Shown here piece after piece: positions 54,784 to 56,459 of a DNA stretch of 64,000 nt; position 1 is the stretch's first letter; the number at the start of each line of letters is the position of its first letter. The notes beneath the pieces were generated by a model that saw only the letters and a program-made list of their open reading frames with translations, was not told where the DNA came from and did no database searches. The DNA is from an uncultured Bacteroidota bacterium (GTDB lineage: Bacteria; Bacteroidota; Bacteroidia; B-17B0; Aurantibacillaceae). Position numbers and translations under genes: made by a program. The stretch covers positions 62,001-126,000 of the forward strand of contig CAILKE010000055.1 in assembly GCA_903834765.1 (NCBI GenBank), in the 5' to 3' direction.

Positions 54784-54836
54784 TGCTTGTTGTTAATAAC
54801 ACCGACAAGGGCAGAAAAATTAAGTGTTTTACAAAT

Positions 54837-54851
54837 GCTACAAATTGTAGC
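54837..54851. promoter_or_regulatory. Operator-like palindrome GCTACAAATTGTAGC upstream of ORF6N gene 1
   Basis: A perfect 15-bp palindrome located 23 bp before the -7 box; the corresponding site in gene 2 is GCTACAATTTGTAGC at 55606-55620, changed only at the central base. The position over the -33 region suits a repressor or activator site. Confidence 0.55.
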
Positions 54852-54873
54852 AGAAACCAACTATAAAATAAAT

Positions 54874-54894: not shown

Positions 54895-54910
54895 TCACGC
54901 CATGGCGTGA
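54895..54910. repeat. Leader palindrome TCACGCCATGGCGTGA, ORF6N gene 1
   Basis: A perfect 16-bp palindrome, 14 bp before the ATG at 54925 and after the -7 box, so it would lie in the mRNA leader. The closest relative is 32885-32900 inside structured element A, which differs at one central base. At the same position in gene 2 is a different palindrome, 55662-55680. Confidence 0.6.
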
Positions 54911-54924
54911 TAATTTATAGAAAG

Positions 54925-55431
54925 ATGCAATTACAAGTGATTCAAACAAAAATTTATGAAGTAAGAGGACAAAAAGTTATGCTAGATTTTGATTTAGCGG
55001 AACTGTATGAAACTGAAACAAGACTTCTAAAAAGAGCAGTACGTAGAAATATCAAGCGTTTTCCTGATGATTTCATGTTTCAGATAACAAAGGAGGAATG
55101 TCAGCTTATCCCAAATTGGGATAACCTCCCAGGACGATTTAGCCCGTCAAGTCCTTTTGCCTTTACTGAACAAGGCGTGGCCATGTTAAGCGGCATATTA
55201 AATAGCGACAAAGCCATTGATGTAAATATTGCTATTATGAGAGCTTTTATTGCTTTAAAACAATTTGCTTTAACAAACACTGAATTAAATAATAAACTCA
55301 AAGAGCTTGAAAAAACATACAATAAACAGTTTAAAGATGTTTACGAAGCCATTAATTATTTACTGCAAAAAGATAAACAGGAAACAAGCCAAAAAGAGCG
55401 AAAGCAAATTGGCTATAAAAAAAATAGTTAG
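54925..55431 (+). CDS. ORF6N-domain protein 1
   Basis: A 168-residue protein starting at ATG 54925. An upstream in-frame extension to TTG 54781 runs through the promoter and leader repeat and is rejected. Residues 4-100 are an ORF6N/KilA-N-like domain: IYEVRGQKVMLDFDLAELYE, RAVRRNIKRFPDDFMFQIT, and the C-terminal SPFAFTEQGVAMLSGIL and VNIAIMRAFIALKQF. A helical, probably coiled tail follows. ORF6N proteins are found in phages and mobile elements and are thought to bind DNA; the target is unknown. The variable loop (residues about 60-72, QLIPNWDNLPG) is encoded by a DNA palindrome at 55106-55124. Confidence 0.88.
   Translation: MQLQVIQTKIYEVRGQKVMLDFDLAELYETETRLLKRAVRRNIKRFPDDFMFQITKEECQLIPNWDNLPGRFSPSSPFAFTEQGVAMLSGILNSDKAIDVNIAIMRAFIALKQFALTNTELNNKLKELEKTYNKQFKDVYEAINYLLQKDKQETSQKERKQIGYKKNS
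55106..55124. repeat. Coding-internal palindrome in ORF6N gene 1
   Basis: TTATCCCAAATTGGGATAA, a 19-bp palindrome with a single central base, falls in the codons for the loop just before the SPFAFTEQGV motif. Gene 2 has a palindrome of different sequence at the equivalent place. Confidence 0.6.
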
Positions 55432-55554: not shown

Positions 55555-55652
55555 CTTGTTGGTGATAACACCAACAAGGGCAGAAAAATTAAGCAATTTA
55601 CAAATGCTACAATTTGTAGCAGTAGCCCACTATAAAATAAATTATTTTTGCT
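55555..55652 (+). repeat. ORF6N cassette leader A2 (98 bp)
   Basis: The counterpart of A1 with 10 differences in 98 bp. The 5' part forms CTTGTTGGTGATAACACCAA with its complement, a perfect inverted repeat. It includes operator-like GCTACAATTTGTAGC (55606-55620) and the box TATTTTTG (55643-55650). Confidence 0.8.
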
Positions 55653-55661
55653 TTAAACTGA

Positions 55662-55680
55662 TATCACAAAATGTGATACC
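55662..55680. repeat. Leader palindrome TATCACAAAATGTGATA of ORF6N gene 2
   Basis: A 17-bp palindrome followed by CC, in the mRNA leader 16 bp before the ATG at 55697. The 19 bases 55662-55680 are repeated exactly inside the coding sequence of the same gene (55911-55929). Confidence 0.7.
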
Positions 55681-55696
55681 ATATAATTGAGTTAAT

Positions 55697-56245
55697 ATGA
55701 AGCAAATAAAATCAGAACTACTAATACCCGAAGAAACCATAATAAAAAAGATTCTAGTTTTAAGGGGTGAAAAAATAATGCTTGATGTACATTTAGCGGA
55801 AATTTATGGAGTGGAAAACAGGGCTTTAAAACAGGCGGTAAGAAGAAATTTAGATTTATTTCCTCATGATTTTATGTTTATACTATCGGAGCAGGAGATC
55901 GAAATGGTGGTATCACAAAATGTGATACCTTCCAAGCAATCTTTAGGAGGAGCCAATCCTTTTGCGTTTACCGAAACGGGAGTTGCAATGTTATCAAGTG
56001 TTTTGAAAAGTAAAAGAGCCAGAGAAATAAATATTGCAATAATGAGAGCCTTTATTGCACTTCGTAAAATGATTTTAAGTAATACTGAGTTGAAATTAGA
56101 AATAGAATATATTAAAAAGAAAGTCATTAATCATGACAAAAACATCGAACTTGTTTTTCAGTATTTAGATGAATTATTAGAGAAAAAAACTATCAAAAAA
56201 CCTCGCACGAAAATAGGTTACAAAATCCCGAAGAAAACAAAATAA
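55697..56245 (+). CDS. ORF6N-domain protein 2
   Basis: A 182-residue protein, homologous to ORF6N protein 1 with roughly half of the residues identical by eye: VLRGEKIMLDVHLAEIYGVE, QAVRRNLDLFPHDFMFILS, NPFAFTETGVAMLSSVL, INIAIMRAFIALRKM. The first 15 residues are an extension that protein 1 lacks. A coiled-coil tail (EIEYIKKKVINHDKNIELV) ends it. The loop MVVSQNVIPSKQ is encoded by DNA carrying the palindrome that is also in the leader. It may recognise this DNA and regulate its own expression; this is a hypothesis. The gene is flanked by leader A2 and trailer B2. Confidence 0.88.
   Translation: MKQIKSELLIPEETIIKKILVLRGEKIMLDVHLAEIYGVENRALKQAVRRNLDLFPHDFMFILSEQEIEMVVSQNVIPSKQSLGGANPFAFTETGVAMLSSVLKSKRAREINIAIMRAFIALRKMILSNTELKLEIEYIKKKVINHDKNIELVFQYLDELLEKKTIKKPRTKIGYKIPKKTK
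55909..55929. repeat. Coding-internal palindrome in ORF6N gene 2
   Basis: A perfect 21-bp palindrome (GG + TATCACAAAATGTGATA + CC) in the codons for the variable loop of the ORF6N domain. Its last 19 bases are identical to 55662-55680 in the leader of the same gene. Confidence 0.75.
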
Positions 56246-56422: not shown

Positions 56423-56454
56423 TTGTTATTAATAACACCGACAAGGGCAGAAAA
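56423..56454 (+). repeat. Truncated third cassette leader A3
   Basis: 32 bp matching leader A1 with one difference (GTTATTAATAACACCGACAA, then GGGCAGAAAA). The homology ends there, 5 bp before the stop codon of the convergent gene at 56460. No third ORF6N gene follows, so the array ends in an empty leader. Confidence 0.75.
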
Positions 56455-56459
56455 TATTT

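Follow-up and report, generated by a model that had tools for sequence, protein, structure and literature searches.

Palindromes in the loop codons of ORF6N genes covary with the predicted recognition helix of the encoded proteins

Based on the covariation between a palindrome in coding DNA and one residue of the encoded protein, a self-encoded binding site is proposed for ORF6N genes. At the level of sequence the link is shown: the palindromic word of a gene can be read from the predicted recognition helix of the protein that it encodes. That the palindrome is a site read by the ORF6N protein of the same gene is likely (probability about 0.85), a view that rests on covariation only, with binding being inferred. 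DNA binding, dimerisation and repression by ORF6N proteins are all inferences from sequence alone.

The loop palindrome in the window and across ORF6N genes

The window, a 64,000-nucleotide stretch of a contig from an uncultured Bacteroidota bacterium, contains two ORF6N genes (Table 1), which belong to PF10543 with scores of 107.6 and 96.3 bits for genes 1 and 2, respectively, against a curated cut-off of 27.8. A sequence-only reading of the window had claimed that one identical 19-bp palindromic word occurs in the leader and in the loop codons of gene 2, and that gene 1 carries palindromes of other sequences in its leader and loop. Both claims held. Exact copies of TATCACAAAATGTGATACC lie at 55662-55680 and 55911-55929, of which the loop copy extends to GGTATCACAAAATGTGATACC, and both palindromes of gene 1 were re-found and are unrelated to each other (TCACGCCATGGCGTGA in the leader, TTATCCCAAATTGGGATAA in the loop). 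When the window was scanned for TATCACAAAATGTGATACC with up to 3 mismatches, three matches were obtained against 0.07 expected, the third being the loop copy on the other strand, and the whole genome (G000) holds 2 exact matches and one place with 2 mismatches. Six ORF6N matches are present in this genome. Five have a stop-free matched domain and all of these are palindromic in the same loop, with differing words of 19, 21, 27, 29 and 29 bp; L005, which belongs to these five, is an ORF6N gene interrupted upstream of the loop, before the helix. The sixth gene is broken and its loop palindrome has decayed. A search of the genome contigs with gene 2 returned only two loci.

Two further observations concern these loci. 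The interruption in L005 lies at another small palindrome, TCCCGATATCTATCGGGA (1487-1504). Repeated flanks of the form TAACACC[GA]ACAAGGGCAGAAAA surround genes 1 and 2 in the window (54790-54819, 55560-55589 and 56430-56455) and look as if the unit had been duplicated in tandem, which is no more than a possibility.

Table 1. Positions of the ORF6N genes, palindromes, predicted recognition helices and SOS-like boxes in the window
Feature	Position	Strand	Evidence or remark
SOS-like box TGCTACAAATTGTAGCA upstream of gene 1	54836..54852	+	pattern census
Gene 1 leader palindrome TCACGCCATGGCGTGA, differs from loop word	54895..54910	.	re-found in palindrome scan
ORF6N gene 1, 168 aa from ATG	54925..55431	+	PF10543, E 3.9e-31
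Gene 1 predicted recognition helix codons, RLLKRAVRR, key residue R37	55021..55047	+	mutual information and code table
Gene 1 loop palindrome TTATCCCAAATTGGGATAA, second reading frame (IPNWDN)	55106..55124	.	R agrees with k4 = C but not with k5 = C
SOS-like box TGCTACAATTTGTAGCA upstream of gene 2	55605..55621	+	pattern census
Gene 2 leader copy TATCACAAAATGTGATACC, proposed operator	55662..55680	.	exact match and leader-loop pairing test
ORF6N gene 2, 182 aa	55697..56245	+	PF10543, E 1.4e-27; AlphaFold model
Gene 2 predicted recognition helix codons, RALKQAVRR, key residue Q46	55820..55846	+	model helix 41-50; Q with CA half-sites
Gene 2 loop palindrome GGTATCACAAAATGTGATACC, encodes VSQNVIP	55909..55929	.	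proposed intragenic binding site of own product

ORF6N genes were gathered from the genus, the family, the phylum, viral contigs and plasmids; 6 of the 21 matching plasmid records and none of the 5 matching phage records were taken. The loop pattern missed several ORF6N loci, which were left uncounted, as well as L299 and L300, which were later read by eye. Merging of loops at least 85% identical reduced 143 loops to 130 non-redundant ones. A palindrome arm score of at least 9 was reached in 114 of these 130 loops, compared with 11 of 259 equal windows from the same genes, and the mean score was 11.5 in the observed loops and 4.8 after synonymous shuffling; surveyed across the family, the loop DNA is thus palindromic far above chance. 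As a rule, each loop contains one palindrome. The frame analysis was confined to loops whose odd palindrome scores at least 8, which are 122 of the 130. Among 115 loops selected for a palindrome in the main frame, pairs k=3 to k=12 are complementary in 86-98% (99 to 113 of 115) and pair k=13 in 80% (92/115); three or four types of base pair are seen at eight of the ten positions from k=3 to k=12. In seven other loops, that of window gene 1 among them, a word of this kind is read in a different frame. When loops were placed by a protein anchor blind to the palindrome, which succeeded for 128 of 137, complementarity was 0.891, versus 0.12-0.26 when the partner was slid by up to 4 bases and at most 0.616 when columns were shuffled.

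Furthermore, the Ser codon before Gln predicts the residue two after Gln in 92 of 94 loops: TCA goes with Val (53/55), TCG with Ala (34/34) and AGC with Gly (5/5). Selection on the protein alone does not yield such a link between synonymous Ser codons and a residue.

A hairpin in the coding part of the mRNA, read by the protein or by RNases, is one rival explanation. With arms of 9-15 bp around a short centre, the transcript would be expected to fold, although no fold was computed. The mismatched arm pairs, which are small in number, comprise 14 G.T and 23 A.C; since G.T mismatches are not commoner than A.C, the constraint looks like one on DNA and no mRNA stem is indicated. The stem was disfavoured on this count, the criterion of G.U tolerance being unmet. 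In addition, the leader copies and the helix-base preferences described below resemble readout of double-stranded DNA, and the mRNA reading is considered very unlikely.

The helix-to-base code

The key helix residue lies outside the palindrome-coded loop and shares 1.49 bits of mutual information with the inner bases of the word (115 genes, covering the three commonest word classes), which is nearly all the information available about the word. This residue, q, is found within the segment x-x-L-x-q-x-V-x-R-N. An AlphaFold model of gene 2 (pLDDT 72.8, moderate confidence) contains helices at 30-37 and 41-50, and the model predicts that the q segment is the second helix of a helix-turn-helix. 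Foldseek, run with this model, retrieved no PDB structure at E<=0.001; Ski/Dachshund proteins came closest, at E of about 0.1, and the title of one of these entries speaks of revealing a DNA-binding motif. When the PDB was searched by sequence with the ORF6N and KilA-N profiles, no useful match was obtained.

In the code table, 140 of 150 distinct genes were scored, those unscored being six without a clear odd palindrome and four without a helix in frame; the helix pattern used was looser than the earlier one, which 14 genes failed. The code fits 133 of the 136 genes with Q, E, R or K at the key residue when a match on either arm is counted. Q is found with CA (59/61), E with CG (44/44), R with GC (23/24) and K with TC (7/7), and four genes with L have TG or TA half-sites. 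At the residue three before q, R occurs with CG in 44 of 45 genes; V, A, T, I or S occur mostly with CA, Q, H or Y mostly with GC, and N or D often with TC. Contacts of Gln with A, Arg with G and Glu with C are textbook residue-base preferences. Frame-shifted palindromes also follow the code (eight genes), two of them, in window gene 1 and L163, only in part; gene 1 departs from it at k5. All five non-Bacteroidota plasmid genes examined fit, namely those of Haliovirga, Butyrivibrio and Legionella oakridgensis in the code table and those of Sulfuricurvum and Treponema saccharophilum (L299 and L300), read by eye.

Common descent of helix and word is an evident objection. Gene pairs 40-69% alike carry the same word in only 31-41% of cases, and pairs of at least 70% identity do so in 58-100%. 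A tree built without the helix and the loop contains at least 39 word changes and at least 46 changes of q. On its supported branches, seven independent pairs bear on CA/Q, of which 6.9 on average go the same way and 0 the opposite way, and six of six pairs go the same way for CG/E; only two pairs bear on GC/R, and few independent pairs overall rest on well-supported branches. Because pairs 40-69% alike share a word in the minority of cases, and because of the tree pairs, descent alone is insufficient to account for the code.

The code was then frozen and tested on 62 loops not used before, taken from another order in which 91 genomes were searched. The 69 held-out loci consist of 29 given directly and 40 fetched and do not include every match in the searched genomes. 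An arm score of at least 9 was reached in 58 of the 62 loops, and none of the 58 genes with Q, E, R or K departs from the code, whereas random pairing of helix and word would fit about 35% of the held-out genes by simple arithmetic from the counts. The remaining loops comprise one with L and TT, two without a palindrome and one without a readable helix. The held-out genes are related to the first set, and their independence therefore rests on the tree analysis. The criterion for a self-encoded site is met by helix-palindrome covariation only, at 133/136 in the sample and 58/58 held out.

Loop palindromes were also found in KilA-N and Bro-N genes. The loop pattern took 35 distinct KilA-N loci of 81 scanned and 16 distinct Bro-N loci of 43. 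After removal of redundancy, a palindrome is present in 26 of 27 KilA-N loops (control 1/81) and in 10 of 15 Bro-N loops (control 0/45), the latter family having been tested for palindromes only. In KilA-N, too, a helix residue tracks the palindrome: across 35 sequences, near-clones included, the residue before the conserved Trp tracks k5 fully (N with T in 26, K with C in 3, D with G in 3, S with T in 2 and T with A in 1), and the residue two after this Trp goes with k4 (R with C in 25, Q with G in 9 and S with C in 1). The k4 link is confounded by descent, because another, distant column tracks k4 equally well. A leader palindrome resembling that of the gene's own loop is present in 1 of 27 KilA-N genes (L141) and 1 of 15 Bro-N genes (L406). 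As a separate observation, L099 and L100, apparently one syntenic locus, have a near-identical ORF6N C-terminus, leader and upstream gene and differ in their N-terminal domains; a domain swap is inferred here, from the sequences only.

Leader sites and the proposed autoregulation

A leader palindrome of the loop-word class was found in only 27 of the 136 genes with usable upstream sequence. Among 36 leader palindromes, 12 are on average no more than 1 base per nine-base arm from the word of their own loop, the others being further away. For a pairing test, identical leader-loop pairs were merged and a common box was dropped, leaving 33 pairs. The mean leader-loop distance in these pairs is 2.39, versus 3.73 after permutation, with none of 20,000 permutations as low, and 11 pairs lie within distance 1 versus 2.3 permuted. 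Leader and loop words are hence related in genes other than gene 2. As a general rule, the match between leader and loop seen in gene 2 held only in part: most genes are without a leader palindrome, and many leader words are not the gene's own. The matching cases include phage contigs and a Butyrivibrio plasmid, in which the leader copy lies about 30 bases ahead of the start codon. In several genes the leader copy is perfect and the coding copy imperfect, and the leaders of L052 and L021 hold their own word plus another word. The leader word of gene 1, TCACGCCATGGCGTGA, recurs in the leader of L023, and L048 and L055 carry it within the reading frame of their C-terminal linkers, as TCACGCCAAG[G/A]CGTGA. 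A second kind of palindrome, identical or close to TCACGCCAWGGCGTGA, is thereby represented at four places: L048 1945-1960, L055 1801-1816, L023 1255-1270 and positions 54895-54910 of the window.

Eight genes, six from the first set and two held out, have no clear loop palindrome. Five of these (L033, L045, L115, L451 and L461) possess a leader palindrome of exactly the class predicted by the helix, about 190-250 bases ahead of the loop start. Four of the five share the loop kind ..F.HL..LKFS, so that fewer independent events may be represented. As for the other three, L160 has a matching palindrome further along the loop region, L304 a shorter one in the loop, and L187 a short CA-type dyad only. 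That the site is kept in either the loop or the leader is the strongest sign that it serves as an operator for the gene.

Another element of the leaders is an SOS-like box, TGCTAYANWNYRTAGCA, which gives 17 forward matches in the genome with at most 1 mismatch, versus 2 for the reversed pattern. Genes interpreted as ruvB, recA, radA, a Y-family polymerase (with one mismatch in the box) and a comM-like gene have it upstream, as do a RAYT, an integrase, the interrupted ORF6N gene of L005 and the four intact ones of the genome; a few matches stand ahead of other genes or of none to which a name could be given. The box loci are the two window positions in Table 1 and L216-L232. The leader box TGCTACA-TGTAGCA was considered as the ORF6N operator and dropped, the box being also present ahead of recA, ruvB, radA and others. 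Its CTAC-N5-GTAG layout upstream of DNA-repair genes is similar to that of the Bacteroidetes LexA-like SOS regulon, the motif of which is CTAA-N5-TTAG (PMC8565304). In contrast to the boxes described here, ORF6N and KilA are absent from the main text of that study (PMC8565304).

In the proposed mechanism, the ORF6N protein would bind the palindrome as a dimer, and the second helix of the helix-turn-helix (R42-R50 in gene 2, with key residue Q46) would read the inner half-site. The site would be located in the surface-loop codons, and a minority of the genes, gene 2 among them, would have a second site in the leader. The bound protein may then repress its own SOS-like promoter, either through obstruction at the leader copy or through a roadblock or loop that involves the coding copy. 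Autorepression is the likeliest use of such a self-site and is favoured by a modest margin, the effect on expression being inferred. Three options had been offered by the sequence-only reading. The first, that coding DNA houses an autoregulatory operator, has the strongest support, because the helix residue predicts the bases and a matching leader site is present in five of the eight genes lacking a clear loop palindrome; regulation itself remains an inference. The other two, an in-frame mobile palindrome and a self/non-self tag, are taken up below.

Neutral upkeep of the palindrome through template switching between the hairpin arms during replication is an alternative. Template switching would copy changes in one arm to the other arm without selection. 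It predicts neither the helix residue, nor the leader-loop pairing, nor the leader sites that replace loop sites, and can be almost entirely ruled out.

Dispersed copies, integrases and known systems

Another conceivable source is a short mobile palindrome, resembling REP or Rickettsia palindromes, whose copies spread and enter genes in frame. Of 68 core words found in 65 genomes, 29 are outside ORF6N domains, and 19 of the 68 are more than 0.9 kb away from such domains; 11 of these 19 are perfect palindromes and one is in a Bro-N gene. Intergenic arrays mix different words of the ORF6N and KilA-N types, and the occurrence of TCACGCCAWGGCGTGA not only in ORF6N leaders but also within the reading frame of a C-terminal linker suits a mobile palindrome. 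Against this explanation, the word tracks the helix residue gene by gene, and in the window's own genome the GGT-type word GGTNNCAAWTTGNNACC is exact only in three ORF6N genes, on which ground genome-wide dispersal there was rejected. The REP/RAYT-type criterion of many dispersed copies is unmet in this genome, scattered copies being present in some others. The mobile option held in part, for the dispersed intergenic copies and TCACGCCAWGGCGTGA. For the loop word it leaves the helix-to-base code unexplained, and as a general account it is judged highly improbable. On the other hand, a self-only operator leaves the 19 distant core words, some of them in intergenic arrays, unexplained. Such arrays were observed at L137 (636-1147), L134 (1015-2471) and L142 (1536-1769), with many words 30-80 bp apart; the L137 array includes AGCTTATCCCAAATTGGGATAAGCT, which resembles the loop word of window gene 1.

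The palindrome might primarily be an attachment site of elements with a tyrosine recombinase, the genes keeping the word as members of the element. Some truncated ORF6N matches start or stop at the palindrome, with a tyrosine recombinase gene adjoining; the integrases have the Pfam domains Arm-DNA-bind_5, Phage_int_SAM_5 and Phage_integrase. A survey of integrases gave 20 matches in 81 genomes. All seven integrases at least 73% identical to that of L270, itself included, are at an ORF6N-type palindrome at one end of the element; the ORF6N half was located by script at five of the seven loci, at L281 by a contig-end overlap with L278 and at L280 by eye. Membership of this kind, with the element joined exactly at the word, is thus met at seven loci of one integrase clade. 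Five of the seven loci had led to the clade, so that 7/7 is not an independent count. Insertions were found in both orientations, and at L272 and L273 different ORF6N left arms run into the same element right arm, which places the crossover in the CAAWTTG centre. In G064, about 42 kb separates the ORF6N N-half from the C-half. In contrast, none of nine integrases at 46-62% identity is at a palindrome, nor is either of the two inspected among four at 36-40%. Moreover, insertion breaks the ORF6N gene, few palindromes are occupied by elements, and an attachment role leaves the prediction of bases by the helix residue unexplained. Attachment as the main function was demoted by the helix code and appears unlikely; the integrase clade probably exploits a conserved palindrome. 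The insert of about 42 kb in G064 (L269 and L267; contig C26, about 42-85 kb) has an integrase at one end and, as judged by eye, carries efflux and metal-resistance-like genes.

A bolder reading, which can be held only as a possibility, is that of self-targeting alleles, in which the main or only site of an ORF6N, KilA-N or Bro-N protein would be its own loop DNA. If this were true, an incoming copy of the same allele would be recognised and silenced whatever its promoter, other alleles being spared; the word and the helix residue would switch together, resulting in compatibility groups like plasmid incompatibility groups; and some integrases would use the tags as landing sites. The third option of the sequence-only reading, the self/non-self tag, is accordingly not excluded. 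Within genomes, words are not shared significantly less often than expected (the inner arm is common to 4 of 84 pairs versus 7.9 expected, P 0.09), and distinct words per genome were rejected as evidence of insulation.

Under the preferred reading, a site read by the protein of the same gene, the DNA targets of a large group of poorly understood phage-type regulator domains could be read from the helix letters and the gene's palindrome. Two codes would share one DNA stretch, a synonymous codon being tied to a distant amino acid through the binding site. The palindrome would also explain the insertion place of one mobile-element clade, and self/non-self regulation by mobile regulators becomes directly testable.

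In the open-access literature searched, with subscription papers mostly outside the search, no description of a coding palindrome in ORF6N or KilA-N genes was recognised. The Bro network of domain-swapping DNA-interactive proteins comprises the same domains, Bro-N, KilA-N and ORF6N, and occurs in phage satellites; the relevant sections of that paper make no mention of a coding palindrome or self-site (PMC10111431). Palindromes within reading frames are known as Rickettsia palindromic elements, which are longer mobile inserts in unrelated genes; the ORF6N word differs from these in tracking the helix of the encoded protein. The local-operator code of the LacI family was likewise derived as a residue-to-base code from regulators and nearby sites, whereas the ORF6N site is within the regulator's own codons (PMC2978694). 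By analogy, the nearest precedent may be phage lambda O and its origin, since lambda O is also a DNA-binding protein with sites inside its own coding sequence; gene O, however, contains four 19-bp iterons and a replication origin (PMC4488673), whereas ORF6N genes have as a rule one palindrome, which varies gene by gene with the recognition helix. As far as can be inferred from sequence alone, the self-encoded binding site is of an already known kind, and for the family-wide helix-to-base code no earlier description was recognised in the literature searched.
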